64,000 nucleotides of DNA from Alcaligenaceae bacterium SAGV5 (GTDB lineage Bacteria > Pseudomonadota > Gammaproteobacteria > Burkholderiales > Burkholderiaceae_B): NCBI GenBank assembly GCA_009360345.1, contig SPDP01000001.1:992001-1056000 (forward strand). Reading direction: 5' to 3'. This document shows, piece by piece, positions 34,347-55,405 of the stretch (positions within the stretch are counted from its first letter, which is position 1; each line of letters begins with the position of its first letter). Made by a program: the position numbers and the translations under genes. The notes beneath the pieces are model-generated. The model had not been told where the DNA came from, did not search any database, and worked only from the letters and a program-made list of their open reading frames with translations.

Positions 34347-34394
34347 CGCCCCGGCAATGCGAGGATCCCGCGACGGACAGGAAGGTCATCCCCG
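34347..34394 (+). repeat. 48-bp direct repeat, left copy
   Basis: It begins CGCCCCGGCAATGCGAGGAT and ends GGAAGGTCATCCCCG. It is identical to 49122-49169 except at 34359 (G here, A there) and in the same orientation. It ends 12 bases before the IclR stop codon and marks the left end of the catabolic island. Confidence 0.9.
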
Positions 34395-35378: not shown

Positions 35379-36290
35379 ATGCGTCTTGATCTCTACACAC
35401 TCCAGCTGTTTGTCGCGGTCATCGACCAAGGCGGAATTGCCGCCGCGGCGGACCAGCAGCACATCGCCGCATCCGCATTGAGCAAACGCATCACCGACAT
35501 GGAGCGATGCATGGGAGTCACGTTGCTGACTCGCAAGGCGCGGGGCGTGGAGCCGACCATGGCGGGCCTGTGCGTGGCCAAGAAAGCACGCCTGCTGTTG
35601 CGCCGGGCGGATGAGATTTCACAGGAAATCCGGGAGTTCGCCAGCGGCCGGGCGGGAAACGTCCGGGTTGGCGTCAATGCATCGGCGCTGATGCAATTCC
35701 TGCCAACGGACCTACGCGAGTTCCAATTGCAGGAACCCGCCATTCAAATCGAGGTGCAGGAGCAGATCAGCTCGTCGGTGATCCGGGCCGTGGCGGAAAA
35801 CGCCGTCGATATCGGCATATGCGTGGCGGAAAACAGCGCCGCCTACGATTTGCATCTGTTCCCCTACCACCGGGACTCCCTGACGCTGGTCGTGCCCGGC
35901 GGCCACCCGCTGGCCGGGGAAAATGCCATCCATTTCGAGAGAACGCTCAACTACCACTATGTCGGCATGCACAAAGGCAGCTCGCTGAACAACCTGTTGA
36001 TCGCCGAGGCGAGCAAGCTCAAGGCACAGATACACATCAGGCAATATGTGACTTCGTTCGACGCGGTGGTCGCCATGGTCAAGGCCAATATCGGCATCGG
36101 CGTCATCCCCACCGGGATCGCCCACAAACTGTATGTGTCGGACGGCATCCGGCTTGTCACCCTGGCCGACGCCTGGGCGGTCCGGGAACTGATGCTTTGC
36201 ATCCGGCGAGAGGATGAATTGTCGTCGTCCGCGCTGAGACTGTTCGAGCACTTGCGCGCCAGCATCCAGGAAGAAGTGGCGTATCACTGA
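35379..36290 (+). CDS. LysR-family transcriptional regulator of the island
   Basis: 303 residues. N-terminal HTH with LYTLQLFVAVIDQGGIAAAA and SALSKRITDMERCMGVTLL, followed by the periplasmic-binding-like effector domain (VRVGVNASALMQFLPTDLRE to VKANIGIGVIPTG). It is the only LysR in the island, and the three operons each have a T-N11-A palindrome upstream, so it is the favoured regulator of all three. It ends 7 bases inside the convergent HMG-CoA-lyase-like gene. Confidence 0.93.
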   Translation: MRLDLYTLQLFVAVIDQGGIAAAADQQHIAASALSKRITDMERCMGVTLLTRKARGVEPTMAGLCVAKKARLLLRRADEISQEIREFASGRAGNVRVGVNASALMQFLPTDLREFQLQEPAIQIEVQEQISSSVIRAVAENAVDIGICVAENSAAYDLHLFPYHRDSLTLVVPGGHPLAGENAIHFERTLNYHYVGMHKGSSLNNLLIAEASKLKAQIHIRQYVTSFDAVVAMVKANIGIGVIPTGIAHKLYVSDGIRLVTLADAWAVRELMLCIRREDELSSSALRLFEHLRASIQEEVAYH

Positions 36291-37276
36291 GCATGCCGGC
36301 GAAGCCCCGCCATCGACCCTGTCCTGGCAAAAGCTGGCAACGGATACCGCCGATGCCAAGGTCCGGCCTCCAGAAGATGGCTGGAAACGGGGTGGTCGAG
36401 CATGCCGGCGAGGACCCGTGAAGCATCCAATAGCGCACCAAGATCCACGCCGCTGCGATACCCCATGGCCTCCAGCATGTGCGCGAGATCCTCGGTGCAG
36501 ACGTTGCCGCTCGCGCCTGGCGCGTAGGGACATCCTCCCAGCCCGGAGAGCGAGGCATCGAACCGGTCTATGCCTGCCTCCAGGGCCGCGACCGCATTGG
36601 CCAGCCCCATGCCGCGCGTGTCGTGAAAATGAGCCGTCAGTTGCAATCCCGGCCACCGAGCCCTGACTCGCCCGCACAGCGACCGTACCTGTGCGGGATT
36701 CGCCATGCCGGTCGTGTCGCAAAGCGTGACCGACACGATGCCCAGGCCGACCAGCCGTTCGACGACATCCACGACCTCACGCTCCGCGACCGGACCATCG
36801 AATGGACAGCCAAAGGCGGTGGAAAGCGAAACCGCGATGCCGACCTCGCCCGCCGCCATGCCCACGATGCGCTCGAATTCGGCCAGAGAGTCAGCCGGCA
36901 GTCGACGCAGGTTGGCCAGGCTATGCCCGGCGCTGACCGACATGACAAGATTGATCTCGTCGACCCCGCAGGCCAGCGCCCGCTCACAACCCCGCACGTT
37001 TGGCACCAGGGCCGCGTAGGCCACGCCGGGATGGCGCCGGATTCCAGCCATGACGGATTCGGCATCGGCAAGGGCGGGAATCGCCTTGGAAGAGGTGAAG
37101 GACGTCACCTCTATCTTGGCGACACCCGTGGCGCCAAGCGCATCGATCAACGCGATCTTCCGCTCGGTCGGAATGAAACCGGCCTCGTTCTGAAAGCCGT
37201 CACGAGGGGCCACTTCCTGGATGAAAACACGGCTTTTTTCGGGGGAAGTCATGATTCCGGTATCCTCGCGCCGCAT
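36284..37276 (-). CDS. HMG-CoA-lyase-like acyl-CoA lyase
   Basis: 330 residues of the HMGL family: substrate Arg in VAPRDGFQNE, metal ligands in TAHFHDTRGMGLAN, and the catalytic Cys loop LGGCPYAPGASGN (about 247). It would cleave a beta-hydroxy-acyl-CoA such as HMG-CoA or citramalyl-CoA. The ATG overlaps the preceding CoA-transferase stop (TGATG), so the two are translated together and probably act in sequence. It is the last gene of operon 1. Confidence 0.9.
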   Translation of the reverse strand: MRREDTGIMTSPEKSRVFIQEVAPRDGFQNEAGFIPTERKIALIDALGATGVAKIEVTSFTSSKAIPALADAESVMAGIRRHPGVAYAALVPNVRGCERALACGVDEINLVMSVSAGHSLANLRRLPADSLAEFERIVGMAAGEVGIAVSLSTAFGCPFDGPVAEREVVDVVERLVGLGIVSVTLCDTTGMANPAQVRSLCGRVRARWPGLQLTAHFHDTRGMGLANAVAALEAGIDRFDASLSGLGGCPYAPGASGNVCTEDLAHMLEAMGYRSGVDLGALLDASRVLAGMLDHPVSSHLLEAGPWHRRYPLPAFARTGSMAGLRRHAQ

Positions 37277-38475
37277 CAGACCAGCCCCCTCGCCCGCAGT
37301 TCTTCCAGCCGACCGGACGAAACATCGATCCCGTCCAGGATCTCTTTTGTGTGCGCCCCCAGCGCGGGCCCCAGCCAATTGATACGACCCGGAGTCGCGC
37401 TGAGCTTGGGCACGATGCCAGGAAACGCCACTTTCTGCCCGCCGGGCAGAGCCGACTCCAGGATCATCTCGCGAGCACGGTAGTGTTCGTCCTGCAGAAT
37501 GTCCTTGGCCGTGTAGATGCGGCCGCAGGGAACTTGCGCGCCTTCGAGCGCGCGCAACACTTCGTCGAGCGGCCTCTCCCCGGTCCAGGCCGATATGACT
37601 TCATCCAGCATCTTGGCTTGGCCCGCCCTGCCGGCGTTGTCCCGCAGCTCCGGGGACTGCGCCAGATCCGGCCGGCCCATGGCATTCATCATGCGTTTGA
37701 AGATCGCATCGCCGTTGCCGGCAATGACGACATAGCTGCCATCGATGCAAAGATAAGTGTTCGATGGAGCGATGCCGGGCAGCGATGAGCCCGTGCGTTC
37801 CCGCACATGCCCGAGCAGATCACACTCCGGGATCAGGCTCTCCATGACCGCGAAGACCGCCTCGTACAGCGCGACGTCGACGATCTGTCCCGTGCCGCCG
37901 AGTTGCTCCCGGTTGCGTAGCGCCATCAGGATACCGATCGTCGCGTAGAGCGAGGCGAGTGTATCGCCCAGGCTGATACCGACACGTACCGGAGCCCGAT
38001 CGGGATAACCGGTCACGTAGCGCAGCCCGCCCATGCATTCGGCGATGGCGGCGAAACCGGGACGGCAACTGGCGGGTCCCGTCTGGCCATAGCCTGAAAT
38101 GCGAGCCATGATCAGCCCGGGATTGATGCCCGACAGCACCTCCCACCCCAGGTTCCACTTCTCCAGCGTGCCAGGCCGAAAATTCTCGATCAGCACGTCG
38201 GCTTCGGCAACCAGCCGACGCACGATGGACTGCCCTTCTTCCGATTTGAGGTCGAGCGACAGCGATTTCTTGTTCCGGCTCTGCGCATACCACCAGAGCG
38301 ATGTGCCGTCATGAAGGTGGCGCCAATTCCTCAGGGGATCGCCCTGGCCGGGCGGCTCGATCTTCACGACGTCGGCGCCGAATTGCGCCAGCAGCGACCC
38401 TGCGTACGGCCCGGCGATCAATGATCCCAACTCGAGCACCTTGACCCCTGCCAGGGCATCTTTGTTCATCTGCAT
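37276..38475 (-). CDS. Family III CoA-transferase (CaiB/BaiF)
   Basis: 399 residues. Motifs are LELGSLIAGPYAGSLLAQFG, ADVVKIEPPGQGDPLRNW, NFRPGTLEKW and the nucleophile Asp in GISLGDTLASLYATIG (about 169). It moves CoA between carboxylic acids in the cytoplasm. In this operon it probably activates an acid from ring breakdown for the HMG-CoA-lyase-like enzyme encoded next. AGGATGAGG lies before the ATG. Confidence 0.93.
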   Translation of the reverse strand: MQMNKDALAGVKVLELGSLIAGPYAGSLLAQFGADVVKIEPPGQGDPLRNWRHLHDGTSLWWYAQSRNKKSLSLDLKSEEGQSIVRRLVAEADVLIENFRPGTLEKWNLGWEVLSGINPGLIMARISGYGQTGPASCRPGFAAIAECMGGLRYVTGYPDRAPVRVGISLGDTLASLYATIGILMALRNREQLGGTGQIVDVALYEAVFAVMESLIPECDLLGHVRERTGSSLPGIAPSNTYLCIDGSYVVIAGNGDAIFKRMMNAMGRPDLAQSPELRDNAGRAGQAKMLDEVISAWTGERPLDEVLRALEGAQVPCGRIYTAKDILQDEHYRAREMILESALPGGQKVAFPGIVPKLSATPGRINWLGPALGAHTKEILDGIDVSSGRLEELRARGLV

Positions 38476-38513: not shown

Positions 38514-39185
38514 TTATGTAGAAACCGGCAAAAGCACCTGATTCGGCGCCAGCTCGCCACGGCTGGCCAAATCGCTCCAGGTCATCACGGCGGCGTACTT
38601 CTGCCTCATGTCGAACAGGCTCGCCTCATGCGGCCCGACCGCGCGGTCGCCGACACAGTCAGCCGCCACCACGGGCCGGAAACCATGGCACATGGCATCG
38701 ATCACGCTGGCGCGCACGCAACCGCTGGTGACGGCACCCGCCACCACCAGCGTGCAAACACCGCGCTGCGTCAACCACGCTGCCAGGGAGGTACCGAAGA
38801 ATGCCGAAGGCACCGTCTTGCGCACGACCAACTCTCCTGGCGCCGGCAGCAGCGCTGGCACGATGGCACTGCCGGGCGCGCGCTCTGTCAGTGCCAGCAA
38901 GCCCGGCACTTTTTCTGTGAACACATTGCCATCGGAGCCGTCGTCGGCGAATACGATGCGGGTATGGGCCACCGGCCAGCCTTGCCGGCGGGCGTGGGCC
39001 AGCAGCCCCACGGTGTTTTCAATCGCCTCAAGGATGTTGCCTCCCCCGAAGAGCCGCGGGTCCGTGAAGCCCTCGACGAAGTCGACAATGAGCAGCCCGG
39101 CGGGAACCCGCAGGACAAGATCGCCGCCAAACCCCTGGCGCTCGTATGCGGAGAGGCCCCCGTTCATGGACGCCGCCCCGGTCAT
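38514..39185 (-). CDS. nicF: NicF-like maleamate amidohydrolase (isochorismatase fold)
   Basis: 223 residues of the cysteine-hydrolase family: Asp in LLIVDFVEGFTDP (about 34), Lys in VVRKTVPSAFFGT (about 123) and Cys in GAVTSGCVRAS (about 153). From memory the segments AMCHGFRPVVAADCVGDRA and ASLFDMRQKYAAVM are close to Pseudomonas NicF, which hydrolyses maleamate to maleate and ammonia. The start overlaps the nicX-like stop as ATGA. In this island the true amide may be a substituted maleamate. Confidence 0.82.
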   Translation of the reverse strand: MTGAASMNGGLSAYERQGFGGDLVLRVPAGLLIVDFVEGFTDPRLFGGGNILEAIENTVGLLAHARRQGWPVAHTRIVFADDGSDGNVFTEKVPGLLALTERAPGSAIVPALLPAPGELVVRKTVPSAFFGTSLAAWLTQRGVCTLVVAGAVTSGCVRASVIDAMCHGFRPVVAADCVGDRAVGPHEASLFDMRQKYAAVMTWSDLASRGELAPNQVLLPVST

Positions 39186-40213
39186 GCGGCCACCTTTCCG
39201 CGTACCACCACATCCTGGCCATCCAGGCTCACCGTGCAGCGGCGTAGCGGGACGTCGATGTGGCAGGCGGTCGTGCGCGAACCGCCTGCCTCGTTGTTGG
39301 GGCCCAGGGAAAACAGGAAATTGCCCTCGAAGGCTCGCGCATCCATGCCTATGGTGGCTTCGCGGTCGTAGAGGCCCAGCGTCGACCAGCGGGCGCGCGG
39401 CTGCAATCCCCAGCCGATGTGCGCGATGGCATAGGCCTCGGGGTCATTGAACGACTCCATGTAGTCGTTCAGCAATTCGGCCGACAATCCACCTTCGATG
39501 CGCACGGCATAGCCGTTTTCGACCGTAAGCCCGATCGGTTCGTCCACATAGCCTTTCTGCGGCAGCAGGATGTCGCCTCGGTCGATGACGATACGGCCGT
39601 TCGATTGCCCCTCGTTCGGCCAGGTCAAGGCAAAGCCGCTCGGCCAATGGTCCCAGCGACCGGGCTCATCCACGAAACCATACTCGCCGATGACAGGAAA
39701 TTCGCCCAGGCGGCAGCTCAGGTCGGTCCCGGCGGCCGAGCGCACATGCATCTCGCGCGCCGCCTTGAGCCGATCCACGGCAGCCATCACACGGATCTTG
39801 TCTTCCAGCGTGGGCAGCATGCGCACGAGCACCTCGGGCGGCTCGACGGCGAGCAGGATCCTGGTGCCGGCCCGCAGGATTTCATGCTGCTCGGGCGAGA
39901 ACAACAGTGTCATCAGATCGATCACCAGATCGCTCGCCTTGAGCGCCGCGATCGCCGCCTGGTTGCCGGTCAGCGGCGTCGTACCCAGATAGGCAAAGAC
40001 GTCCCGGCTCAACGCCTTCTCCGCATTGACCGGGGGCAGATCCAGACGGTTGACGACGGCGCCCAACGACTGCGCGGCGACGATCGCGCAATGCAAGGTC
40101 TGGGGATGGGTCGTCGCCCCGGTCAACAAGGTGACGGTCTGTCCGGACGCCAGTTTCGACAGGTCGAAGACCTGCCGCCAGGCACGTATCAGCTCATAAT
40201 CGGCAACGGGCAT
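39182..40213 (-). CDS. nicX: NicX-like 2,5-dihydroxypyridine 5,6-dioxygenase
   Basis: 343 residues of the M29-aminopeptidase-like fold that includes NicX. From memory it matches Pseudomonas NicX in LLAVEPPEVLVRMLPT, EYGFVDEPGRWDHWPSGF, IAHIGWGLQPRARW and GPNNEAGGSRTTACHIDVPL, which hold the Fe(II) ligands and substrate contacts. NicX opens 2,5-dihydroxypyridine to N-formylmaleamate with O2. AAGGAGC precedes the ATG; coupled translation with the NicF-like gene supports sequential action. The substrate could be a ring-substituted dihydroxypyridine. Confidence 0.85.
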   Translation of the reverse strand: MPVADYELIRAWRQVFDLSKLASGQTVTLLTGATTHPQTLHCAIVAAQSLGAVVNRLDLPPVNAEKALSRDVFAYLGTTPLTGNQAAIAALKASDLVIDLMTLLFSPEQHEILRAGTRILLAVEPPEVLVRMLPTLEDKIRVMAAVDRLKAAREMHVRSAAGTDLSCRLGEFPVIGEYGFVDEPGRWDHWPSGFALTWPNEGQSNGRIVIDRGDILLPQKGYVDEPIGLTVENGYAVRIEGGLSAELLNDYMESFNDPEAYAIAHIGWGLQPRARWSTLGLYDREATIGMDARAFEGNFLFSLGPNNEAGGSRTTACHIDVPLRRCTVSLDGQDVVVRGKVAA

Positions 40214-40278: not shown

Positions 40279-41241
40279 TCAAAGCTTGAACAGACGCTCG
40301 GCATTTCCATGGCAGACCAGCGCTCGCGTGGCATCGTCCAGCGGTGCTTGCTCGATGAAATCGGCAGCGATCAAAGACGACTCGTAGGGATAGTCGACCG
40401 AGAACATGACCGCCTCGGGTCCCATTTCGGCGATGGCTCCCGCCAGTGCGCCGGGCGAGCAGACTCCCGACGTCGTAATGACGATATTTGTGCCGATGTA
40501 TTCGGATGGCCGGCGCTGTAGCGCAATGCCGTGCGAATAGACCGCGAAACGGCTGTCGAGGCGCCAGCGCTGGAACGGCAGGCCCTCGCCCATGTGCCCC
40601 AATATCAGCGTGACCCCGGGGAAGCGATCGAACACCCCTCCGAACAACAATCGCAGCGCATGGGTGCCTGTCTCGACCCCCCACCCCCAGGCCGCGCCGG
40701 CCAACTCGGGATGGCCTTGGCAGGCCAGCGGCTGCACCAATGGGTCGGCGGGATGCAGATACATCGGTACCTCGAGTTCCTGCAATCTCTCCCAAAACAC
40801 GTCGTAGGCCCGGTCATCGTAATAGCGGCCCTGGGTATGCCCATTGACCAGGCAACCCTTGAACCCGAGCCCGACGACCGCGCGTTCGAGCTCCGCCACC
40901 GCGGCGGCGGGATCGTGCATCGACAGCGTGGCGAAACCCCGGTAACGCGTCGGGTGGCGTTCAACCTGCCTGGCCAGGAAGTCGTTGTTGCGACTGGCCT
41001 GGGCAATGGCACGCGCGGGATCCTCCTCACCCTGGACCCCGGGGCCGCTTTGCGAAAGAACGGCGATATCCACGCCTGCGGCATTCATTTCGCCAAGGCG
41101 TATGTCGTCGAAATCGGACAGCCGCGATGCCAGGCAAGCCACGCTTGCCGGGTCCATGTGCTGCATGAAGCTCTTCGCGTAGTGCTGAAACCCCTCGGCC
41201 GTAAAGTGTTCCTCGAACGCGATCTTGCGAATTCTCGTCAT
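40279..41241 (-). CDS. Amidohydrolase-fold decarboxylase (gamma-resorcylate/PicC type)
   Basis: 320 residues of the ACMSD-like amidohydrolase_2 family. Metal ligands fit non-oxidative decarboxylases: FEEHF at 9-13, His in MYLHPADP (about 162), His in LILGHMGEGLPF and Asp in FSVDYPYE (about 282). Relatives remove CO2 from 2,6-dihydroxybenzoate or, as PicC, from 3,6-dihydroxypicolinate to give 2,5-dihydroxypyridine. Directly upstream of nicX in the operon, it would supply that ring substrate. AAGGTGG precedes the ATG. Confidence 0.85.
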   Translation of the reverse strand: MTRIRKIAFEEHFTAEGFQHYAKSFMQHMDPASVACLASRLSDFDDIRLGEMNAAGVDIAVLSQSGPGVQGEEDPARAIAQASRNNDFLARQVERHPTRYRGFATLSMHDPAAAVAELERAVVGLGFKGCLVNGHTQGRYYDDRAYDVFWERLQELEVPMYLHPADPLVQPLACQGHPELAGAAWGWGVETGTHALRLLFGGVFDRFPGVTLILGHMGEGLPFQRWRLDSRFAVYSHGIALQRRPSEYIGTNIVITTSGVCSPGALAGAIAEMGPEAVMFSVDYPYESSLIAADFIEQAPLDDATRALVCHGNAERLFKL

Positions 41242-41287: not shown

Positions 41288-41794
41288 TCATACCGGGTAG
41301 ACCAGATCGTTGGCGACCAGGGCGGTGTCGTAGACGCACTGTCGCTCGCGCAGCAGCAGGCGCCCTGCCCGCCGGACGAAGACGTCGTGATAACAGCCTG
41401 CCTGATGCAACGTGGTGGGCCCTTCGATCAAGGTTTGCAGCAGCAGATAGTTGGCTCGCGCAACGACGCATCCCCCCTCCGCGCCGAGGACTCGCACGTT
41501 GGCAACGTAATGCAGGACCGTGCGCGGCGCGAACATCTGGGTATTGCCGATCGCATAGGCACGGTCGCGCAGCATCGTCCTGCCCTCCGCGTAGACCAGC
41601 CCCGCCGGCAGGCCGGCGTCGAAATTCTCGCGCGAGGTGACGCGATAGATCGCGTCTTCCGTGAAATGGTCGGGCCATTGGTCCAGATGGCCTTCATCCA
41701 GCATCGCGCAATAGGCGCTGTGGAAATCCTCGATATCCGCGCGCAGCTCTCGCAATTCGCCGGCGGTCATGGTCATGCTGTTGCCTGCGTTCAT
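41288..41794 (-). CDS. Ring-hydroxylating oxygenase beta subunit
   Basis: 168 residues with the NTF2/SnoaL-like fold of Rieske oxygenase small subunits: DIEDFHSAYCAMLDEGHLDQ, FTEDAIYRV and MLRDRAYAIGNTQMFAPRT. It stabilises the catalytic alpha subunit. It starts 3 bases after the alpha gene ends, so the pair is cotranslated. A second ATG six codons in is possible. Confidence 0.9.
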   Translation of the reverse strand: MNAGNSMTMTAGELRELRADIEDFHSAYCAMLDEGHLDQWPDHFTEDAIYRVTSRENFDAGLPAGLVYAEGRTMLRDRAYAIGNTQMFAPRTVLHYVANVRVLGAEGGCVVARANYLLLQTLIEGPTTLHQAGCYHDVFVRRAGRLLLRERQCVYDTALVANDLVYPV

Positions 41795-41797
41795 GCT

Positions 41798-43030
41798 TCA
41801 GAGCCCCATGGTCTCGCGGTATTGACGATACATGCCACGAATCGCGGACTCGGTGATCAGCGTGGTGGCGCCCCCCTCCCCCGTACCCAGCTTGAGCAGA
41901 CCGCGCGCAGTCGGCGAGCGCCGCACACCCTCCTGCAGGAACTTGATCGCCTCGTTGTCTTCCACGCCCAGAAAACCGGACGGCCCCATGAGATTGCCCT
42001 GGCGCAGCCGGTGGCGGGTCATTTCGTCCGAATCGTCTTCGTAGCCGAACAGTATCCACAGCATGATCATGCTGTTGGGGCCGTTGGGCACGATGTGGCG
42101 GATTCCGAGCGTGTTGAGCTCGCGCTGCACGATCAGATTGGGCCAGATTGTCTGCATCGCCACCGACCAGGGCGAATCGAATTCCTTGACGAACCGGAGC
42201 ATCTGCTCGTCGTGCAATTTCATGCCGTCATGAAACGACCGCATTTCTCCCTTGCTGTCCGCATCGACGTTGATCGCCGCCGGATCGTCGCCCTTGGCCG
42301 AAGCGATCGTGCCATGGCGGCCGGTGGGATCAACGATCATCGCGCTGCGGTTACCGGCGACGACCAGTCCGAACGTCACCAGGTAGGAATGCAACAGCGT
42401 CGCGTGGTAGGGATCCTTCAGGTTCTCGTGATAGAGCTTCCAGTTGCCAGGCAGCTCGTTGCGGTAGTAGCCATGGATACGCAGTTTTTTCCCTTTGAAG
42501 ACGACATTGAAGTCTTCCAGGATCTCGGCACCCAGGTAGTCCTCGATCGGTTCCACATCGTCGCTGAACGAGGCGAAAACAACGCCGTGCAACACCGTCA
42601 CGTTGAACCGGCGAAGCCCATGCTGTTCGTTGCGGAAATCGGGCGGCATGCCGCCCTCGCCCTTGACCCCCCGCTTGAACGGCACGCCGCGCAGGTTCCC
42701 CTTCAGATCGTAGCTCCACTGGTGATAGGGGCAGACGAACTCCTGGGCCTTGCCACGCGGCTCGCGGCAGAACTCGACACCCCGGTGGGCGCAGCGATTC
42801 TCGAAGACGTGAACGCCGCCTTCCTTGTCGCGCGACACGACAACCGGCGTGGGTCCGATATACGAGCGCTTGTAGCAGCCAGGGTCGGGGATTTCCGCCT
42901 CAAGCGCCACGAAATTCCAGGTGCGTCCATGGAACACACGGTCCACCTCGCGATCGTAGATAAGCTGGCTGGTGTAGATCCAATCGGGAACCTCGGCCAT
43001 GTCCGCCGACGGCCACTTGAAATCGTCCAT
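41798..43030 (-). CDS. Rieske ring-hydroxylating oxygenase alpha subunit
   Basis: 410 residues. Rieske cluster CAHRGVEFC, then CPYHQWSYDL (about 79-105), binds [2Fe-2S]; the mononuclear iron site is seen in NWKLYHENLKDPYHATLLH (about 195-215). It would add oxygen to an aromatic ring using an external reductase; none is encoded in the island. GAAGGAGCG precedes the ATG at 43030; an upstream ATG (MYSNDTV) would overlap the promoter. It is the first gene of operon 1, 139 bases below an operator. Confidence 0.93.
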   Translation of the reverse strand: MDDFKWPSADMAEVPDWIYTSQLIYDREVDRVFHGRTWNFVALEAEIPDPGCYKRSYIGPTPVVVSRDKEGGVHVFENRCAHRGVEFCREPRGKAQEFVCPYHQWSYDLKGNLRGVPFKRGVKGEGGMPPDFRNEQHGLRRFNVTVLHGVVFASFSDDVEPIEDYLGAEILEDFNVVFKGKKLRIHGYYRNELPGNWKLYHENLKDPYHATLLHSYLVTFGLVVAGNRSAMIVDPTGRHGTIASAKGDDPAAINVDADSKGEMRSFHDGMKLHDEQMLRFVKEFDSPWSVAMQTIWPNLIVQRELNTLGIRHIVPNGPNSMIMLWILFGYEDDSDEMTRHRLRQGNLMGPSGFLGVEDNEAIKFLQEGVRRSPTARGLLKLGTGEGGATTLITESAIRGMYRQYRETMGL

Positions 43031-43168
43031 CGAACGCTCCTTCGGGTGCGAGCCCGTGGGTCCGATGACGGTATCGTTGCTGTACATGAGAGGCCTCGAG
43101 ATTGGAGTTCGATTGCATCCATACTGACTGCATCCCCACCCCTGGACAAACAGTATTTGGTTGCCCCC

Positions 43169-43187
43169 CCATCGCCAACGGCGATGG
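43169..43187. promoter_or_regulatory. 19-bp island operator, operon 1
   Basis: CCATCGCCAACGGCGATGG is a perfect palindrome with 8-base arms around AAC. It contains T-N11-A. It lies 139 bases upstream of the Rieske alpha start. Confidence 0.75.
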
Positions 43188-43269
43188 GTGCCAGGGACAC
43201 GCCAGCCGGGTCGCATGGCCGGATGAAAAAAGGCGGCGCCGGCATTCGCGCCCGCTCCGGCGCGCGGGC

Positions 43270-44262
43270 TCAGGTCTTCGACAGATCGAGCGTGCTGGGA
43301 GCGAAGAGTTCGTGGGCCTGGACCGGCCGCGCTGACAGATGCTGATCGTGGTGATAGCGCGCGAAAGTCTCGAGCGTGTTGAGATTTTTTTCGTAGCCGT
43401 ACGGCCAGAAATCTTCGCCCATGAGACGCCGGGTCTCGTTGTAGTGATCCACCACCCAGGGAAGCGTGGTCATCAATACGGCGATCTCACCCAGGTCCTT
43501 GACCGCGATGTCCTTGGCGGCGAGGAATGCCTTGAATACGGAAACGGGCAGCCACGGGTGCGCTTCGACCAATGACTTCCGGATCCCTATCATGTGCATG
43601 ATCGGAAACAGGCCGGTCCGGCGGTAGTAATCCTGCTCGACTTCACGAAAATTGGGAAACAGCCTGCCTACGTTGGCCACACCGCGCTCGAAGCAGGATG
43701 GCGCGCGGGCGCTGAGCATCGCGTCGATTTCGCCATTCGCGAGCATGTCCGACAGCGTGGCGTCGTCCGGAACTTGCTGGAGATCGATATTGTCGGGCAG
43801 AGATATGGGTGAACGCTCGCCCCGGCCGGGCTCCTCGATACCTCCCCTGCGCCATTGGATGTCCTTCGGGTCGACGCCGTACTCATCCTTGAGCAAGCCA
43901 CGCATCCACACATTGGCGGTGATCTGGTATTCAGGCACTCCGACCTTCCGACCACGGAGATCCTGCGGGCGGTCAATTCCGCGGTCGGTGCGGATGTAGA
44001 TTCCTGCGTGCCTGAAAACCCGCGACACGAAGGCCGGGATCCCCACATATTGATTCTCGCCGCGCGAAACCGTCGCCATGTGGCTGGACATCGACATTTC
44101 GCAGACATCGAACTCTTGAAACCTGAACGCCCGATGGAAGCACTCCTCCGCTTCGATGACCAATGGGACGATGTCACAGCCCTCGATCCGTACCCTCCGG
44201 TCGAAGATCGGTTTGACTCGGTCATAATCGCAGACAGCGACCGTAAGCGGGACTTGGTGCAT
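43270..44262 (-). CDS. 4,5-dihydroxyphthalate decarboxylase-like protein (SBP fold, cytosolic)
   Basis: 330 residues without a signal peptide but with a periplasmic-binding-protein fold, as in Pht5-type 4,5-dihydroxyphthalate decarboxylases. Motifs recalled from that group are FQEFDVCEMSMSSHMATVSR, KVGVPEYQITANVWMRG, GLFPIMHMIGIRK and FARYHHDQHLSAR. Pht5 removes one carboxylate from a dihydroxylated benzene dicarboxylate. Here it could act on a hydroxylated ring dicarboxylate. Many relatives are annotated as transport proteins, so the enzyme call is moderate. GGAG precedes the ATG; it follows the Bug gene by 79 bases. Confidence 0.75.
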   Translation of the reverse strand: MHQVPLTVAVCDYDRVKPIFDRRVRIEGCDIVPLVIEAEECFHRAFRFQEFDVCEMSMSSHMATVSRGENQYVGIPAFVSRVFRHAGIYIRTDRGIDRPQDLRGRKVGVPEYQITANVWMRGLLKDEYGVDPKDIQWRRGGIEEPGRGERSPISLPDNIDLQQVPDDATLSDMLANGEIDAMLSARAPSCFERGVANVGRLFPNFREVEQDYYRRTGLFPIMHMIGIRKSLVEAHPWLPVSVFKAFLAAKDIAVKDLGEIAVLMTTLPWVVDHYNETRRLMGEDFWPYGYEKNLNTLETFARYHHDQHLSARPVQAHELFAPSTLDLSKT

Positions 44263-44341
44263 GGAGTTCTCCGAAGGGTTGCATGAAAAGCAGGTTCAGG
44301 CCTATTTCAGTTGCTGACACGGAGCAGGGACACGGTCCACC

Positions 44342-45310
44342 CTACTCCGCCTTGATTCCGGCCCGGGCCACGATGCCCGCGACCTTGCCGCGCACGCTCT
44401 CGATCACGCGGTCCATTTCCTCCGGTGTGGAACCCACGGTTTCAGCACCCAGCGCCGCGAACTTGGCGCGTACCTCCGCCTGTTTCAACACGCCGTTGGT
44501 ATCGGCATTGATCTTCTCGATCACATCGCGGGGCGTTCCCGCCGGTGCGGCAAGAACCGCAAGCACCGATGATTCGAAACCAGGAATGGCGAGTTCCGCG
44601 ACCGTCGGCGTGGCCGGGGAAAGCGCCGTGCGCCTGGCCGTGGTGACCGCCAGCATCCTGACACTGCCCGCCTTGGCAAAGGGAATCGCCTGGACCAGCG
44701 ACACGATGCCATAGGGCACTTCGCCCGCCACCACCGCGTTCACCGCCGCCGGCCCCCCCTTGTACGGAACGTGCACGGCTTTGATGCCCGCCTCGTACGC
44801 GATCCATTCTCCGGTAATGTGGTTCATCGTTCCCAGGCCGGGGGTAGACCACGACAATTGACCTGGATGGGCGCGGGCAACATCGATCAGGCCGCCCAGG
44901 CTGTCGAACGGTGCCGCCGGGTTCGACACCACCGCCATCGGGTTGGCGGCCACCACACCGATCGCGGTAAAGCTCTTCGACGGGTCGTAAGGCAATTTCT
45001 CGAAGATGGCGGGATTGATGGTGAATGGATTCGAGGAGGCCATGAACAATGTATAGCCGTCGGGGGCCGACTTCGCGACCGCCGCGGCACCGATCATCTC
45101 GCTGGCTCCGGGCCGGTTCTCGACGATCACCGGCTGTCCCCACTTGGCCGCCAGTTTTTCTCCGACCACCCGCGCCGCGGTATCGATCGGCCCTCCCGCG
45201 GCGGCGCCAACGACGATGCGCACGGGCTTGGACGGAAAACCCTGCGCCTGAGCGGCTTGACAGCACAGGGCGGCGGCGAAGAGCAAGACAAGCCTGATAT
45301 CGAAGAACAT
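44342..45310 (-). CDS. Bug-family (TTT) periplasmic solute-binding protein
   Basis: 322 residues with a leader ending AAQAQ (about 22), then VRIVVGAAAGGPIDTAARVV, VIVENRPGAS, SAPDGYTLFM and HVPYKGGPAAVNAVVAGEV. AAGGAG precedes the ATG. As the only transport-related gene of the island it is the best candidate to capture the substrate; its membrane partner must be elsewhere. It is the first gene of operon 2, about 153 bases below an operator. Confidence 0.93.
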   Translation of the reverse strand: MFFDIRLVLLFAAALCCQAAQAQGFPSKPVRIVVGAAAGGPIDTAARVVGEKLAAKWGQPVIVENRPGASEMIGAAAVAKSAPDGYTLFMASSNPFTINPAIFEKLPYDPSKSFTAIGVVAANPMAVVSNPAAPFDSLGGLIDVARAHPGQLSWSTPGLGTMNHITGEWIAYEAGIKAVHVPYKGGPAAVNAVVAGEVPYGIVSLVQAIPFAKAGSVRMLAVTTARRTALSPATPTVAELAIPGFESSVLAVLAAPAGTPRDVIEKINADTNGVLKQAEVRAKFAALGAETVGSTPEEMDRVIESVRGKVAGIVARAGIKAE

Positions 45311-45462
45311 GACACACTCCTTGTTGCCAGTTATCACTGAATAGGCTGCGAACGCTGTCCGATCCGGGCAAGACAGGCGACGATCGGTCCCCGGGGACAT
45401 CGTCAAGACGACGATGATGCAAGAGCAATGGCAAGGCGGGCAATTCGTATCTCGTCACGCCG

Positions 45463-45481
45463 CCATCGCGAATGACGATGG
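45463..45481. promoter_or_regulatory. 19-bp island operator, operon 2
   Basis: CCATCGCGAATGACGATGG matches the operon 1 site at 15 of 19 positions and keeps CCATCG...CGATGG exactly. It lies 153 bases upstream of the Bug start. Confidence 0.7.
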
Positions 45482-45550
45482 CTCTCCTGACAGGCGTGCC
45501 GCGCGACGGGGACGCCGCCCCAAGGGGGGCACTCCCGACGCCGCGCCGCG

Positions 45551-47335
45551 TCAACGCTTCTGGCTGGGACTCGATACGCTAGTCGGGTTGTCATAGCCCG
45601 GCATCACGCGTACGTCGATCACGCACACACGGCCCGCGCGCACAGCGGCCAGCCCCTGCTCGATCGCCGGCCGCAACGCCGCCGTTTCCGTCACGGGGCC
45701 GATGCCGTCCGCCCCTTGGGCGCGCGCCATCGCGGCCAGGTCGACATCCGGGTCGTCGATACTCTGGCCGATCCACTTGTTCTCGACAGGGCGACCACGC
45801 TCGATGGCCATGTGTTCCTGGTGCATGACGTCGTTGTAGTACGCACGATTGTTGGCGACGATGATCAGGCAAGGGATCCGATGGCGGACGGCCGTCCACA
45901 CCGCCGTGACGCCCATGAGGAAATCTCCGTCGCCGACCACGCCGGCCACGATCCGATCGGAGCCGCGCAGCGCCAGCGCCGCGCCCACGGTCAAGCCCGG
46001 GCCGGCACCGACTCCGCCGCCTCCCGTATAGCCCAGATAATCCAGCGGATGCCGGAACGCACGATAGAAGCCGTTCCAGCTCAGGGGCAGGCTGGCCAGG
46101 GAAAGCATCTGGTCGCCGATGGCATCGTTGAGCGCTTCGGCGACCACCCGGACCGATAGCACCGACGGATCGAATGGCGGCAATCGGACACGCGTCGGCG
46201 GCGGCACCAGCGCTCGACGGTCGATGCGCGCCAGCAGCAGCGGCACCACGGCGTCGGGTTCGCACAGCACGTAGATATCGGTGGGGGGCAGGCCCTGGTA
46301 GTCCATGCTCCAGCCCCGATGCACGAGCTGGTCCGGCGACACATTGATGATCTTGGCATCAACGGGCTCGTCGCCACAGGCCTGCTTCAGCGCGCCGGCC
46401 ACGTCGTACCAGTCCAGCGCCAGCACGACGTCTGCCGCACGCAGCAACTGGCAAGCCTCGGGCGGCAGAAAAGTGCCCGGTGCGCACGGATGCAGCGGAT
46501 GATCGGTAGGAAACGCAGCGGGCATCTTCCAATCGGTCAACACGACCGCCTGCAGGGTCTCGGCCAGCTCCACCCGGCGCCGCCAGTCGTCTGTGCCGCG
46601 CGTGCTGCGGCCCATCAGGATGACCGGACGGACGGCCTGCGAAAGCAACTGCGCCACCTCATCCAGCAGCGCCCCGGCCGGCACCGCCGGAGAGGGGGCG
46701 CGGAAGCGAGCCACATCCGGCAGATGCGGCAATGGACCAATGGCGGTTTCCTGGATGACGCTGTCAAGGTTGACATAGGTGGGCCCGCGCGGGGCGGTAT
46801 CGGCGATCTGCACGGCCCGAAGCAATGCCTCGCAGGTAGCCGGCACCGAGGCTGGCTGGTTGTCCCATTTCGTGTAGTCGCGGACCAGCGCGCCCTGGTC
46901 CGACGACGTGTGTATCCAATCGATCCAGGGCCTCCTCCGGGCGGCATCCCACGGGCCGGTGGCGCCCAGCACCAACATCGGCACACGATCGCACCAGGCA
47001 TTGAAGATCGACATCGAGGCATGCATCAACCCGACGTTGGAATGCAGCACCACCCCCATCATCCGGCCGGCGGCCCTGGCATACCCATGCGCAATCGAAA
47101 CGGCCGATTCTTCGTGCAGGCACAGCAGCATCTGTGGCGTCGTGTTGCCCGTGTAATTGACCAGGCTGTCGTGCAGGCCCCGGAAACTGGCGCCCGGATT
47201 CAACGCAAGATAGGGAATGTCCAAGGCCCGCAGCATGGCCGCCGTGGCGTCGCTGCCCCAGACGTCCCGCCGCTCGGCCATCGGCACGGGCCGGTCATGC
47301 CCGGCGCCGTCCCCGCCTGGATATCTATCGTTCAT
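45551..47335 (-). CDS. TPP-dependent 2-oxoacid decarboxylase-like enzyme
   Basis: 594 residues with the three-domain plan of pyruvate-oxidase/benzoylformate-decarboxylase enzymes. The catalytic Glu is in LCLHEESAVSIAHGYARAAG (about 80), and the TPP motif GDGDFLMGVTAVWTAVRH runs to IVANN (about 467-495). The FAD-domain region is present but nucleotide binding is not evident. GAAGGAACG precedes the ATG at 47335; an earlier ATG five codons upstream is less well placed. Downstream of an aldehyde dehydrogenase gene, it probably makes an aldehyde that the dehydrogenase oxidises. Confidence 0.88.
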   Translation of the reverse strand: MNDRYPGGDGAGHDRPVPMAERRDVWGSDATAAMLRALDIPYLALNPGASFRGLHDSLVNYTGNTTPQMLLCLHEESAVSIAHGYARAAGRMMGVVLHSNVGLMHASMSIFNAWCDRVPMLVLGATGPWDAARRRPWIDWIHTSSDQGALVRDYTKWDNQPASVPATCEALLRAVQIADTAPRGPTYVNLDSVIQETAIGPLPHLPDVARFRAPSPAVPAGALLDEVAQLLSQAVRPVILMGRSTRGTDDWRRRVELAETLQAVVLTDWKMPAAFPTDHPLHPCAPGTFLPPEACQLLRAADVVLALDWYDVAGALKQACGDEPVDAKIINVSPDQLVHRGWSMDYQGLPPTDIYVLCEPDAVVPLLLARIDRRALVPPPTRVRLPPFDPSVLSVRVVAEALNDAIGDQMLSLASLPLSWNGFYRAFRHPLDYLGYTGGGGVGAGPGLTVGAALALRGSDRIVAGVVGDGDFLMGVTAVWTAVRHRIPCLIIVANNRAYYNDVMHQEHMAIERGRPVENKWIGQSIDDPDVDLAAMARAQGADGIGPVTETAALRPAIEQGLAAVRAGRVCVIDVRVMPGYDNPTSVSSPSQKR

Positions 47336-47438
47336 GTGGCGTTCCTTCAAGAGTCATTTGGTTCGAATACTCACCGACGTCGCCAAGCCCGCCGCGCCGT
47401 CCTGGAATCCCCTGTCAACGCCCGAAGCGGCCGGGGCG

Positions 47439-48908
47439 TCAGAAACGCATGCTGATGTTTTTCACCTGCGTGAAGCTGAGAAGCTCTTCGAGGCTTTCCT
47501 CCCGCCCGATGCCGGACTGCTTGTAGCCACCAAAGGGAGCGCCGTTGTAGTGCGTGGCGGTGCCGTTGATCCAGACACTGCCCGTCTCGACGCACGTCGC
47601 GGCCCGGCAACCGGCAGCCAGATCGGAAGTCCATATCGAACTGGTCAGGCCGTATTCGACCTGGTTCACCTCGTCCAACATCGTGGATTCGTCATTCCAC
47701 CGGATGACTGACAAGACGGGACCGAACACCTCTTCGCGGGCGATGCGCATGGATTGCCGCACGTCCGCAAATACCGTGGGCTCCACGAACCAGCCATCGG
47801 CGAGCCCAGGATCGGACGGCCGCTTTCCACCGCATAGCAGCCGTGCGCCTTCCTCCTGGGCCAGCCGGATATAGGCCATGATTTTGTCGAACTGTTCGGC
47901 GGAGATGATGGCCCCCATGGTCGTCTCCATGTCCGTGGGGATGCCGGGCCGATAGTGGCGCACGCAAGCCACCACTCGTGCCAGCACCTCGTCGTGGATA
48001 TCGTCGTGCAGGAAGAGGCGGGACGTAGAACCGCAAGACTGTCCGCACCAGGTGAAATTCATGCCGTCCACGGCCGCCTGCGCGGCCCGGTCCAGGTCAG
48101 CGTCCGGATAGACGATGCAGGCATTCTTGCCGCCCAGTTCGAGCGTGACATGCTTGAGACGGTTCGCGCCGGCGCGCGCGATTGCGCGGCCGGTGGGTAC
48201 GCTGCCGATCAGCGAGATCCGTGGCACTTGCGGGTGCTCGACCAGTGCCTCGCTGCCCGCGCGGCCGGCCGTGATGACATTGATCACGCCCGGCGGGACA
48301 ATATCGCCGATCAGCTCCATCAGCCGGTACGACGACAACGGCGCCTGCGAGGGAGGCTTCATCAAGACCGTGTTGCCGACAGCGAGCGCCGCGCCGATCT
48401 TGCCCGCCGTGAACATCAGGGGATGGTTGTAAGCGACGATTCTCGCGACCACCCCATAGGGCTCCCGGATGGACATGTTCAGTTCGCCTGCGCCCACCGG
48501 CGTCGTCTCGCCCTTCACCTCGGTGACCAGGCCTGCGCAGAATTCCAGCACCTCCGCGGCCGTGGTGACATCGCGCAGCATCTCGCGCACGGGGTTGCCA
48601 CAGTTGATCGAATCAAGCAACGCCAGCTCTTCGGCATGTGCCCGCAGGATCCCGGCAACCTGCCGCAGCAATGCGCTCCGCTCGCCTGGCCGGGTGGCGC
48701 GCCACGCCAGGAATGCCCGATGCGCGGCGCGTACCGCCGCATCGACGTCCGCCGCGTTGGCCTCCGCGCACCGGCCGAGATTCTCGCCGGTGGCGGGATT
48801 GAAGGTGTCCAGATAGCCGCCCGCCGGCTGGTGCCAGCTACCGCCGTAATAGAGGTCTCGATTGCTGGGCAGCACGGTGCCCGCTGTCGATTTCGCGGTG
48901 GAATGCAT
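47439..48908 (-). CDS. Aldehyde dehydrogenase (NAD(P)+)
   Basis: 489 residues, the usual ALDH length. The general base Glu is in VTLELGGKNACIVYPDADLD (about 256) and the nucleophile Cys in WCGQSCGSTSRLFLHD (about 289). GAGGAGG precedes the ATG. It is the first gene of operon 3, 75 bases below an operator, and is followed by the TPP enzyme after 103 bases. Substrate specificity is not readable. Confidence 0.95.
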   Translation of the reverse strand: MHSTAKSTAGTVLPSNRDLYYGGSWHQPAGGYLDTFNPATGENLGRCAEANAADVDAAVRAAHRAFLAWRATRPGERSALLRQVAGILRAHAEELALLDSINCGNPVREMLRDVTTAAEVLEFCAGLVTEVKGETTPVGAGELNMSIREPYGVVARIVAYNHPLMFTAGKIGAALAVGNTVLMKPPSQAPLSSYRLMELIGDIVPPGVINVITAGRAGSEALVEHPQVPRISLIGSVPTGRAIARAGANRLKHVTLELGGKNACIVYPDADLDRAAQAAVDGMNFTWCGQSCGSTSRLFLHDDIHDEVLARVVACVRHYRPGIPTDMETTMGAIISAEQFDKIMAYIRLAQEEGARLLCGGKRPSDPGLADGWFVEPTVFADVRQSMRIAREEVFGPVLSVIRWNDESTMLDEVNQVEYGLTSSIWTSDLAAGCRAATCVETGSVWINGTATHYNGAPFGGYKQSGIGREESLEELLSFTQVKNISMRF

Positions 48909-48982
48909 CAGGGCCTCCTCGGAATGAGGGGCCAATCGTGCATGAGGCCGGCGCGCGCAACAATGCGTCTATTTTCGCCCCC

Positions 48983-49001
48983 TCATCGCCAACCGCGATG
49001 G
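48983..49001. promoter_or_regulatory. 19-bp island operator, operon 3
   Basis: TCATCGCCAACCGCGATGG matches the operon 1 site at 17 of 19 positions, with the same AAC centre and T-N11-A. It lies 75 bases upstream of the aldehyde dehydrogenase start. Confidence 0.72.
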
Positions 49002-49121: not shown

Positions 49122-49169
49122 CGCCCCGGCAATACGAGGATCCCGCGACGGACAGGAAGGTCATCCCCG
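49122..49169 (+). repeat. 48-bp direct repeat, right copy
   Basis: The same sequence and orientation as 34347-34394 with one base difference (49134). It ends 20 bases before the stop codon of the SYLF lipoprotein gene and marks the right end of the catabolic island. The rest of the 281-base gap 48909-49189 holds only the operator. Confidence 0.9.
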
Positions 49170-52309: not shown

Positions 52310-53305
52310 ATGCGCCCGGGCATCCCCGGTTTTCCGCGAGACGCAGCCGTGAGCACCGACGGCAGGCGGAACCGGACCGACCAGTTGCGCATCAAGCACC
52401 TGCGTCTGCTGGAGCTGGTGGCCGAACACCATTCTCTGGCCGCGGTGGCGCAGGCCATGCACCTGAGCCAACCCACGGTGACGAGCATGGTGCAAACGCT
52501 GGAAGAAGTCTTCGGCACCACCCTGATCGAGCGCAGCGCGCGGGGAGGCAGCCTGACCGACGCCGGCAATCTCGCGCTGCGGCAATTGCGCATCGCCCTG
52601 GCCTCGTTCGACACGGCGCTGGAAAGCGTGGTCCGTGGCAGCACGCCGCTGGTACGCGTCGGCGTCCTGCCGCTGCTCGATGCCTGGCTGCTGCCACAGG
52701 CCATGGCCAGGATGGAATCCACCGGCACGCTGCCCCGCATCGCCATTACGCACGGCGGCATCAACGTGCTGTACGGCGGCCTGGACCGAAGCGAAATCGA
52801 TTGCGCGATCTGCCACCTGGACGAGTTGCCCGTGCAGGGCGGCCACCTGACCGACCTGCACATCGAACCCTTGCATGAGGAAAGCCGGCTGTTCGCCTGC
52901 GCGACGAACCACCCGCTCGCACGGCATGCCTCGCTTCGGCTGACCGATCTCGCGAACGAGGAATGGATCGTCCCGCCCAAGGCATCCCAGGCCCGCCGGG
53001 TGCTGGAGCGCGTGTTCCTGGGGGCCGGCCTGGTGCCGCCGCAGCCGCGTATCGAGTCCTTTCCCTATCACACGAACCTGGAGGTGGCCGCGGCCACCCG
53101 CATGCTGACCTTCGCGCCGTCCTCGCCCGTGCGCCACTATGCCGGGATGGGCCGGGTACACATCCTGCCCATCGCCGACGATATCCCGGTCAGCCGGTTG
53201 GCATTCCTGGCGCGCCAGCCCGTGATGCAGTTGCCCGGGGTCGAGCCGCTGCGGCAGGCCGTCGTCTGGGCGGCCCGGCAGATGGCCGCCACGCAGGCAG
53301 CCTGA
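52310..53305 (+). CDS. LysR-family transcriptional regulator
   Basis: 331 residues; the first 13 may not be translated because a GTG at 52349 gives the more usual N-terminus. HTH: HLRLLELVAEHHSLAAVAQA, HLSQPTVTSMVQTLEEVFGT. The effector domain starts at VRVGVLPLLDAWLL. It ends 6 bases from the convergent CoA-transferase gene and probably regulates that CoA-transferase/Bug unit; no operator was identified. Confidence 0.92.
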   Translation: MRPGIPGFPRDAAVSTDGRRNRTDQLRIKHLRLLELVAEHHSLAAVAQAMHLSQPTVTSMVQTLEEVFGTTLIERSARGGSLTDAGNLALRQLRIALASFDTALESVVRGSTPLVRVGVLPLLDAWLLPQAMARMESTGTLPRIAITHGGINVLYGGLDRSEIDCAICHLDELPVQGGHLTDLHIEPLHEESRLFACATNHPLARHASLRLTDLANEEWIVPPKASQARRVLERVFLGAGLVPPQPRIESFPYHTNLEVAAATRMLTFAPSSPVRHYAGMGRVHILPIADDIPVSRLAFLARQPVMQLPGVEPLRQAVVWAARQMAATQAA

Positions 53306-53311
53306 ACGGAT

Positions 53312-54403
53312 TCAGGCCCAGGCGCGGAACCCCAGTCCCGGCACCGTCGCGCTGTCCTCGCCATCCCGGAGCACCACCGGCTCCAGCGCGCCACTGGCGA
53401 CGGCGTCGGCGGCGAACTCCGCCACCGACCGGACCTTGGAAGCCGGCACGCCGGCCTGGGCCAGCCGCTGTTCGAGCGGCGCAGCCTCCCACGCTTCTAT
53501 CCGCTCCCGCAGGCGCGACTTGAGCACCGTGGGGTCCTTCGCCCTGAGGAAGGACACCTGTTCGCCCGGTTCGGCCGACACATCGAACAAGGCCGGATCG
53601 GTGGCCAGTTCGCCCAGGTCCAGCACCTCCAGCAGGCGGGAGAACTGCGCGGGCGTATTGGCCCCCAGCGCGATCCAGCCGTCGCGGGTCCGGAAAAAAT
53701 CGGCGGCGGGACTGCCCGAATAGCCCTGGTTGCCGACGCGGCGCGGCGACACGCCCTTGGTCAGGGCCTCGACGGCGTAGCTGTACATCAGTTGCATCGA
53801 CGCCGCGGCCATGGACACATCGAGCAGGATGCTGCGGCCGTCGCGGTTGCGCTGGTGCAACGCGCTCACGATGGCCAGCGCGCCCAGCATGCCCGTGGCG
53901 GCGTCCACGACCGGGAAACCGGTCTTGATGGGGTCGTCGCCTTCGACGCCGCCCATCATCGCCATCCCCGTCATTGCCTGCACCACGTGGTCGTACGCCG
54001 GCCGGTCGGCCCAGGGTCCGGTCCGGCCGAAGCCGGAGATCGAGCAATAGACGATGCGCGGATTGACCTCGCGGATGGCGTCATAGCCCAGCCCGTGCCG
54101 CTCCAGCGATCCGGGTCGGAAGTTGTCGACGAACACGTCGGCCTCGCGCGCCATCTCCAGGATCTCCGCGCGCCCGGTCTCGGTGCGCAAGTCCAGCGCC
54201 ACGCAGCGCTTGCCGCCATTGAGCGACAGGAAGGCCGACGGCCCCCGCTCGGACCGGCGCAGCACGTCGCCGCCGGCGGGTTTCTCGATCTTCACGACAT
54301 CCGCGCCCATCTGCGCAAGATAGAACGTCGCCAGGGGACCGGCGATGACGTGCGAAAAATCCAGCACGCGTACGCCCGCCAGCGGTAGGAAAGTCTGATT
54401 CAT
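53312..54403 (-). CDS. Family III CoA-transferase (CaiB/BaiF)
   Basis: 363 residues: VLDFSHVIAGPLATFYLAQM, ADVVKIEKPAGGDVLRRSE, DNFRPGSLERHGLGYD and the nucleophile Asp in FPVVDAATGMLGALAIV. It is shorter than the island paralog at 37276 and clearly a different subgroup. It follows the Bug gene by 24 bases; together they look like uptake plus CoA activation of one carboxylic acid, a pairing frequent in Bordetella-type genomes. Confidence 0.92.
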   Translation of the reverse strand: MNQTFLPLAGVRVLDFSHVIAGPLATFYLAQMGADVVKIEKPAGGDVLRRSERGPSAFLSLNGGKRCVALDLRTETGRAEILEMAREADVFVDNFRPGSLERHGLGYDAIREVNPRIVYCSISGFGRTGPWADRPAYDHVVQAMTGMAMMGGVEGDDPIKTGFPVVDAATGMLGALAIVSALHQRNRDGRSILLDVSMAAASMQLMYSYAVEALTKGVSPRRVGNQGYSGSPAADFFRTRDGWIALGANTPAQFSRLLEVLDLGELATDPALFDVSAEPGEQVSFLRAKDPTVLKSRLRERIEAWEAAPLEQRLAQAGVPASKVRSVAEFAADAVASGALEPVVLRDGEDSATVPGLGFRAWA

Positions 54404-54427
54404 GGTTTGGCCGTGCGGCGATGCCGC

Positions 54428-55405
54428 CTAGAATTGAACGATCTTGGAAGCGCGCACGATGCGCGAGAACTTGGCGGTTTCCTTCGCGAGGAAATCGGCG
54501 AAATCGTCCGCCGTGGGCGACAGCTCCACCGGCGATCCGTTCTTGTCGAAGAACGCGTTCAGTTCGCCGCGCTTGAACGTCTCGTGGATGGCACGGTTCA
54601 ACTTGGCCACGATGTCCGTGGGCATGCCCGCCGGCCCCCAGACACCGTTCCACGATTCGATCACCGCATCGTCGCTGCCCAGCGCCTCCTTCAGCGTGGG
54701 CACGCCGGCAAGAATAGGCAGGCGCTTGGCCGAGGTCACCCCCAGCACGCGCACGGCGCCCGACTCGACCTGCGGCAGCGCCGCCGTCACGACAGGAAAA
54801 CAGAACTGCGTCTGCCCGCCCAGCAACGACGGCACGAGGTCCACCGATCCGCGATAAGGCACATGGACCACGTCGATGCCGGTGGTCGTGGCCAGCGCCG
54901 CGCCCGCCAGATGCGAGCCCGTGCCCACGCCGCCCGAGGCGAAGTTCAGCTTCCCGGGCGCCTGCCGGGCCGCGGCCACGATGTCCTGGATGGACCGGTA
55001 CGGCGCGGTCCCCGCAACGGCCAGTACGAACGGATTCATGTTGATCAGCGACACGGGCGCCAGATTCTTCAGCACGTCCACGCCGACCGAAGGGTTGATC
55101 AGCCTGTTCGTGATCATGGGCGACCCGCCGAACAGCAGTGTGTAGCCATCCGCCCTGGCCTGCGAGACCGACACCGCGCCCAGCGTGCCGCCCGCGCCCA
55201 CCTTGTTCTCCACGAATACGCTCTGCCCCATCTGGCTGCCCAGTGCCTCGGCGAACTTCCTGGCCAGCAGATCGACGCCGCCCCCGGCGGCATAAGGCAC
55301 GATCAGCCGGATCGGGCGGTCGGGATAGGTATCGGCCGGTGCGGCCTGGCTTGCTGCCGGAGCGAGGCAGCAGGTCAGCACCGCGGCAAGAATGCGTGCG
55401 CGCAT
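54428..55405 (-). CDS. Bug-family (TTT) periplasmic solute-binding protein
   Basis: 325 residues with a leader ending SQAAP (about 23), then IRLIVPYAAGGGVDLLARKF, FVENKVGAGGT, ARADGYTLLF and HVPYRGSVDLVPSLLGGQ. ACAGGAG precedes the ATG. It is the first gene of a two-gene unit with the CoA-transferase; no membrane partner is nearby. Confidence 0.93.
   Translation of the reverse strand: MRARILAAVLTCCLAPAASQAAPADTYPDRPIRLIVPYAAGGGVDLLARKFAEALGSQMGQSVFVENKVGAGGTLGAVSVSQARADGYTLLFGGSPMITNRLINPSVGVDVLKNLAPVSLINMNPFVLAVAGTAPYRSIQDIVAAARQAPGKLNFASGGVGTGSHLAGAALATTTGIDVVHVPYRGSVDLVPSLLGGQTQFCFPVVTAALPQVESGAVRVLGVTSAKRLPILAGVPTLKEALGSDDAVIESWNGVWGPAGMPTDIVAKLNRAIHETFKRGELNAFFDKNGSPVELSPTADDFADFLAKETAKFSRIVRASKIVQF

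Follow-up and report, generated by a model that had tools for sequence, protein, structure and literature searches.

The recognition binding site (RBS) of LysR-type regulators is given as a T-N11-A element often placed near -65 (PMC8407307), and a report on Pseudomonas syringae gives the motif ATCG-N7-CGAT for PSPPH3798 (PMC11957545). The gene make-up of the picolinate-degrading pic clusters of Alcaligenes faecalis and Bordetella is likewise described (PMC10142695). Considered here is a 64,000-nucleotide stretch of the Alcaligenaceae bacterium SAGV5 genome (contig SPDP01000001.1, positions 992,001 to 1,056,000 of the forward strand), called the window, in which three 19-bp palindromes precede three predicted operons of one insert: the Rieske, the Bug/Pht5-like, and the aldehyde dehydrogenase/thiamine pyrophosphate (ALDH/TPP) operon. 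On the sequence evidence, these palindromes are very probably operators read by a LysR-type regulator of the same insert, which would activate the three operons together.

43169 to 43187, minus strand: operator 1, proposed LysR recognition site, Rieske operon promoter; exact sequence; refined form confined to the island
45463 to 45481, minus strand: operator 2, proposed LysR recognition site, Bug/Pht5-like operon promoter; exact sequence
48983 to 49001, minus strand: operator 3, proposed LysR recognition site, ALDH/TPP operon promoter; exact sequence
35379 to 36290, plus strand: LysR-type regulator, proposed reader of the operators (PF00126, PF03466); homologues carry the operator

Like the LysR box (T-N11-A, also in the form ATC-N9-GAT), the window has a T-N11-A palindrome, a predicted centre near -65, and a LysR gene on the same insert; its sites differ in their specific half-site, CATCG(C), and in apparently serving one regulator for three separated operons. 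The PSPPH3798 motif has the same 15-bp consensus as the window sites, but the organism and the targets differ. Relatives in which LysR stands with HMGL-like lyase and CaiB operons (L211, L243, L272, L278, L280, L281, L282, L286) have the same kind of operator beside LysR, whereas the window has it ahead of three gene sets, with the Rieske, Bug/Pht5-like, and ALDH/TPP genes among them. Open-licence literature on LysR motifs and regulons, to the extent of its titles and the openings of its abstracts, names no such operator for this LysR lineage.

Every letter of the three 19-mers is as a first-pass annotation of this DNA had recorded it, and its T-N11-A reading holds at all three sites, being contained in ATCG-N7-CGAT. 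The nine-nucleotide gap it gave does not hold: the common core is CATCG-N7-CGATG (17 bp), and the form CATCG-N9-CGATG was rejected, having a single exact window match, at 45398, outside all three sites. The operators lie 152 and 74 bases before the Bug and ALDH genes (153 and 75 had been claimed) and 81 bases, instead of the erroneous 139, before the Rieske gene, because its conserved start is at 43087: counted from there, alignments with Rieske alpha relatives begin at residue 1, and the open reading frames (ORFs) of L077 and L096 start at the same point.

Genome-wide (6.01 Mb), the core is found at 71 places; chance expectation for a 5.8-kb stretch is about 0.07, and P is about 5e-5 for three. 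Among 50 of these places that were examined, a rule based on third-codon-position G+C (GC3) scored 46 as inside an ORF, leaving two island sites, L351, and L358; the Rieske site (L012) was itself scored as inside an ORF, on an overlapping frame. Exactly three places in the genome match the refined form CATCGCSAAYSRCGATG, namely the three island sites, although this uniqueness alone is weak evidence because the pattern was derived from the sites themselves; a single further match with one mismatch lies inside an ORF that we take, without a search, to be phage-like. The palindrome joined to the TTG of the predicted -35 box has four exact genome matches, of which three are the island sites and the fourth overlaps an ORF. 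By both forms, the motif is not frequent at unrelated promoters of this genome.

The association of the palindrome with LysR genes was followed in 268 genomes of the same family, searched with the looser motif CATCGCNAANNNCGATG and with the island LysR; motif and LysR homologue are repeatedly found side by side. The LysR search (E<=1e-60, eight candidates scored per genome) listed 139 places besides its own. About 4 kb on either side was fetched for 118 homologues; 21 places of sister-clade appearance were left out at first, and 20 of these were later added to the counts (total 138; G198 left out). The 138 homologues are 36-50% identical to the window LysR. CATCG-N7-CGATG lies within 160 bp of the LysR gene in 53 of the 118, while 59 other letter arrangements of the palindrome were found at a mean of 0.03 and a maximum of one of the same loci; none of the 20 added homologues has the site (53/138 overall). 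When all palindromes with arms of 5-6 nt and gaps of 3-9 nt were enumerated in the 118 loci, CATCG-N7 came first, with 53 within 200 bp. For the looser ATCG-N7-CGAT, 37 of the 118 loci were labelled upstream, 27 downstream, six about 1.1 kb away, and 48 none. Conservation of the site next to LysR genes of this kind extends to some of the homologues only. Copies within the LysR gene itself are left out of these counts, as in sister-clade locus L304, with one loose copy 4 nt into the gene. An identical copy of the operator 2 19-mer adjoins the LysR homologue of L243. In many of the loci L214-L239 a second recurrent palindrome, of the type [TGC]CATCGGC..CGCGATGG, lies well away from the main site, about 352-363 bp upstream of LysR; the copy in L231 is within the divergent ORF.

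The window LysR belongs to a clade of 29 (support 0.987-0.988), and in 23 of the other 28 members a looser site lies shortly 3' of LysR; the remaining five were labelled none, and two of them (L187 and L200) have a site with one changed base. In the sister clade the site is found in 0/49 (29 members at support 0.98; 49 with the added homologues, at support 0.882). The recognition helix reads HIAASALSKRI in the window, HIA.SALSKRL in its clade, HIAAAA.SKRI in the upstream-site group, and HLAVGAASKRI in the consensus of 29 sister-clade members; among the 20 added sister members a few helices differ slightly (L388, L400, L401), and that of L402 is HLALSAASRRL. A split between AAS/AAA and AVG appears largely to separate the LysRs with and without the operator and, if true, would be a testable recognition rule. 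An HMGL-like gene lies within the fetched 4 kb at 27/28 window-clade loci, and lyase and CaiB are both present at 23/43 of the loci labelled none outside the window's clade, versus 11/37 upstream-site loci and 3/28 loci of the window's clade; because the pair is commoner where the site is lacking, the site follows the type of regulator and not the neighbouring genes. The commonest palindrome of the sister clade, GGGAA-N7-TTCCC (13/29), was considered as a switched operator and rejected, since it is terminator-like and the copies shown lie 3' of LysR, at 34-142 bp.

All target genes run on the minus strand; read in that direction, their promoters share one layout: palindrome, 19 nt, TTG, 17-18 nt, and a -10 box.

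43144 to 43149, minus strand: predicted -35 box TTGTCC, 19 nt after operator 1
43121 to 43126, minus strand: predicted -10 box CAGTAT of the operator 1 promoter, after a 17-nt spacer
45438 to 45443, minus strand: predicted -35 box TTGCCC, 19 nt after operator 2
45414 to 45419, minus strand: predicted -10 box CATCAT of the operator 2 promoter, after an 18-nt spacer
48958 to 48963, minus strand: predicted -35 box TTGTTG, 19 nt after operator 3
48935 to 48940, minus strand: predicted -10 box CACGAT of the operator 3 promoter, after a 17-nt spacer

With the usual start 7 nt after the predicted -10 box, the palindrome centres fall at about -64/-65. At the downstream-type (3') sites of the relatives, TTG stands exactly 19 nt after the 19-mer in 21/26, as in the window promoters. 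A matrix was built from 21 of the relatives' promoters (effective number 7.8), beginning after the palindrome and so excluding it; the five 3' sites that it omits (L213, L217, L275, L277, L279) lie outside the window LysR's clade. This relatives-only matrix ranks the ALDH promoter 1st, the Bug promoter 34th, and the Rieske promoter 77th of 127,902 window positions, with the best scores at offset 0; of 20,000 shuffles, 0, 6, and 12, respectively, attain the score, and the opposite flanks score -10 (ALDH), -26 (Bug), and -34 (Rieske). The earlier proposal that one regulon under the island LysR unites the three operons is supported by the palindrome beside many homologues of that LysR and by a layout shared with the promoters of its closest relatives.

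The window LysR, which has both helix-turn-helix and effector domains and lies near the sites, would most likely bind as a tetramer; one dimer would then sit on the palindrome (centre near -65) and the other on the A-rich stretch between palindrome and -35 box. Its inducer would presumably be a pathway substrate or intermediate, and inducer-bound LysR would then activate the seven-gene Rieske operon, the Bug/Pht5-like operon, and the ALDH/TPP operon together. As an example of a familiar kind of control, the circuit is well supported. What was a loose island becomes a single testable circuit that predicts which genes answer the same inducer, with a regulon rule that can be applied to other genomes. 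The circuit also provides an operator sequence for this LysR lineage; the lineage's window member reaches the cut-off of none of the 25 NCBIfam models shown and has no solved-structure match at E<=1e-20.

Several observations weigh against reading the palindromes as sites of this LysR. The looser motif CATCGCNAANNNCGATG is not rare, with at least one copy in 153/268 family genomes (mostly one or two; a few have three to five), and its presence alone therefore says little. The homologue counts are not independent of kinship, the looser site is missing within 160 bp of 48 of the 118 homologues and of all 20 added later, and no homologue found exceeds 50% identity to the window LysR; an order-wide search for closer homologues at E<=1e-84 gave 3/399 genomes, its own included, the best other at 49%. 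At the 37 upstream-type sites, TTG is not placed at 19 nt; in 18 it stands 2 nt further on. Unlike the 37/118 homologues with a site upstream of LysR, the window lacks a CATCG site between IclR and LysR and thus shows no sign of autoregulation by this motif, and the best matrix score at LysR's own promoter is 3.0, as against 26.5-28.4; an operator at the regulator's own promoter is common among LysR-type regulators, though not required. Lastly, 80 related Rieske-alpha loci have no convincing motif before the Rieske gene, so the motif was not inherited with those genes; nor do these loci have a LysR or IclR match at >=38% identity.

The alternative that survives best, though it is unlikely, is that a divergent IclR-family regulator reads the palindromes, alone or shared with LysR.

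34406 to 35188, minus strand: IclR-family regulator, divergent from LysR
35316 to 35334, plus strand: a different 19-bp palindrome, TGTTCGC-N5-GCGAACA, between IclR and LysR

IclR is encoded on the insert too, and its family often uses palindromic operators. However, IclR homologues at E<=1e-60 are confined to one other genome of the 268 (two places, 46% identity), and ATCG-N7-CGAT is at neither locus, although two loci make a small test; the motif follows the LysR homologues, and the IclR/LysR intergenic region holds a palindrome of another sequence. That palindrome is centred 54 bp before LysR, where many homologues carry CATCG sites, and contains the operator's TCGC-N5-GCGA core; LysR or IclR might read it. 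A second dyad, CGTAT-N3-ATACG, lies near it.

Far less probable is a reading of the three sites by a second LysR encoded close by.

52310 to 53305: second LysR, just outside the insert

Its proximity and LysR type would fit such a role, but it is present, at 93-95% identity, in four congeners without the insert at this site, and CATCG-N7-CGATG is absent from all seven of its loci fetched (about 1.5 kb on either side). It belongs to a second LysR-CaiB-Bug set at 52310-55405, outside the insert.

There is just as little probability that the palindromes are RNA hairpins, terminators, or attenuators: they can fold, and site 1 folds better than its shuffles (z -2.3), but sites 2 and 3 fold about like theirs (z -1.2 and -0.15), no U-run follows the palindromes, no Rfam match reaches the gathering score, and the predicted starts are downstream of all three. 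That GC-rich palindromes resemble one another here by chance, to which the 71 genome copies and the coding position scored for 46 of the 50 examined might point, is the least probable of all. It is already contradicted by the presence of three copies within 5.8 kb, one ahead of each gene set, by their matching promoter layout, and by the association across genomes.

The 14.7-kb insert holds LysR, IclR, all three target operons, and all three operators between two direct repeats.

34347 to 34394, plus strand: 48-bp direct repeat, left insert end
49122 to 49169, plus strand: 48-bp direct repeat, right insert end, 47/48 identical to the left copy

In four congeners (G190, G192, G195, G197) the match to 34394 runs directly into the match to about 49120, so that the insert is missing from this site, the rest of those genomes not having been searched for the island. 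The repeats resemble attachment or duplication ends; their 33-bp core has no other genome copy within three mismatches. An integrase is lacking from the 13 insert products scanned, and a plasmid search gave no near copy of the island (eight records, the best place covering 7% of the query).

The operators precede the following genes; operator 1 stands before seven closely spaced ones, from the Rieske alpha subunit through the HMGL-like lyase.

41798 to 43087, minus strand: Rieske oxygenase alpha subunit, first of the seven
41288 to 41794, minus strand: ring-hydroxylating beta subunit
40279 to 41241, minus strand: Amidohydro_2 protein, PicC-like decarboxylase candidate
39182 to 40189, minus strand: protein that we take to be NicX/PicD-like; no Pfam or NCBIfam match
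38514 to 39185, minus strand: isochorismatase family protein, presumably NicF/PicF-like
37276 to 38475, minus strand: CaiB-type CoA-transferase
36284 to 37237, minus strand: HMGL-like lyase
44342 to 45310, minus strand: periplasmic binding protein, presumably Bug-type; no NCBIfam match, 37-39% matches
43270 to 44262, minus strand: Pht5-like protein, so named in the first-pass annotation; no Pfam or NCBIfam match
47439 to 48908, minus strand: aldehyde dehydrogenase
45551 to 47335, minus strand: TPP-dependent enzyme

The first five of the seven have relatives of 58-78% identity that stand together in L077 and L096 (Bordetella and Alcaligenes contigs). By similarity, this five-gene set appears to match the described pic make-up, with PicB-, PicC-, PicD-, and PicF-like genes together. 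The published regulator of pic is reportedly a MarR repressor, PicR, whereas the window insert carries LysR and IclR instead. The 13 insert products scanned include no picA, picE, picG, ferredoxin, reductase, or MarR gene, the remainder of the genome not having been searched. The Rieske alpha and beta genes (41288-43087) are thus without a ferredoxin or reductase among those products; the relatives in L077 and L096 have beside alpha genes that we take to encode them.

The best matches in the set for CaiB (68-71%) and HMGL (63-66%) are in L272, L278, L280, L281, L282, and L286, six loci with this kind of operator upstream of LysR. The simplest history suggested by these sequences would be that a LysR/CaiB/HMGL circuit acquired pyridine-type genes. 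It is quite possible, if somewhat short of probable, that a LysR lineage found elsewhere beside lyase/CoA-transferase operons captured a pic-type pyridine-degradation set, its promoter module (operator, spacer, -35, and -10, ready-made) now standing before three operons in place of MarR control, with the whole circuit on one insert. Membership of the TPP/ALDH and Pht5-like genes in the same pathway, as argued in the first-pass annotation, would follow only from the predicted co-regulation; relatives of the Pht5-like protein (59-72%) are found near Rieske genes.

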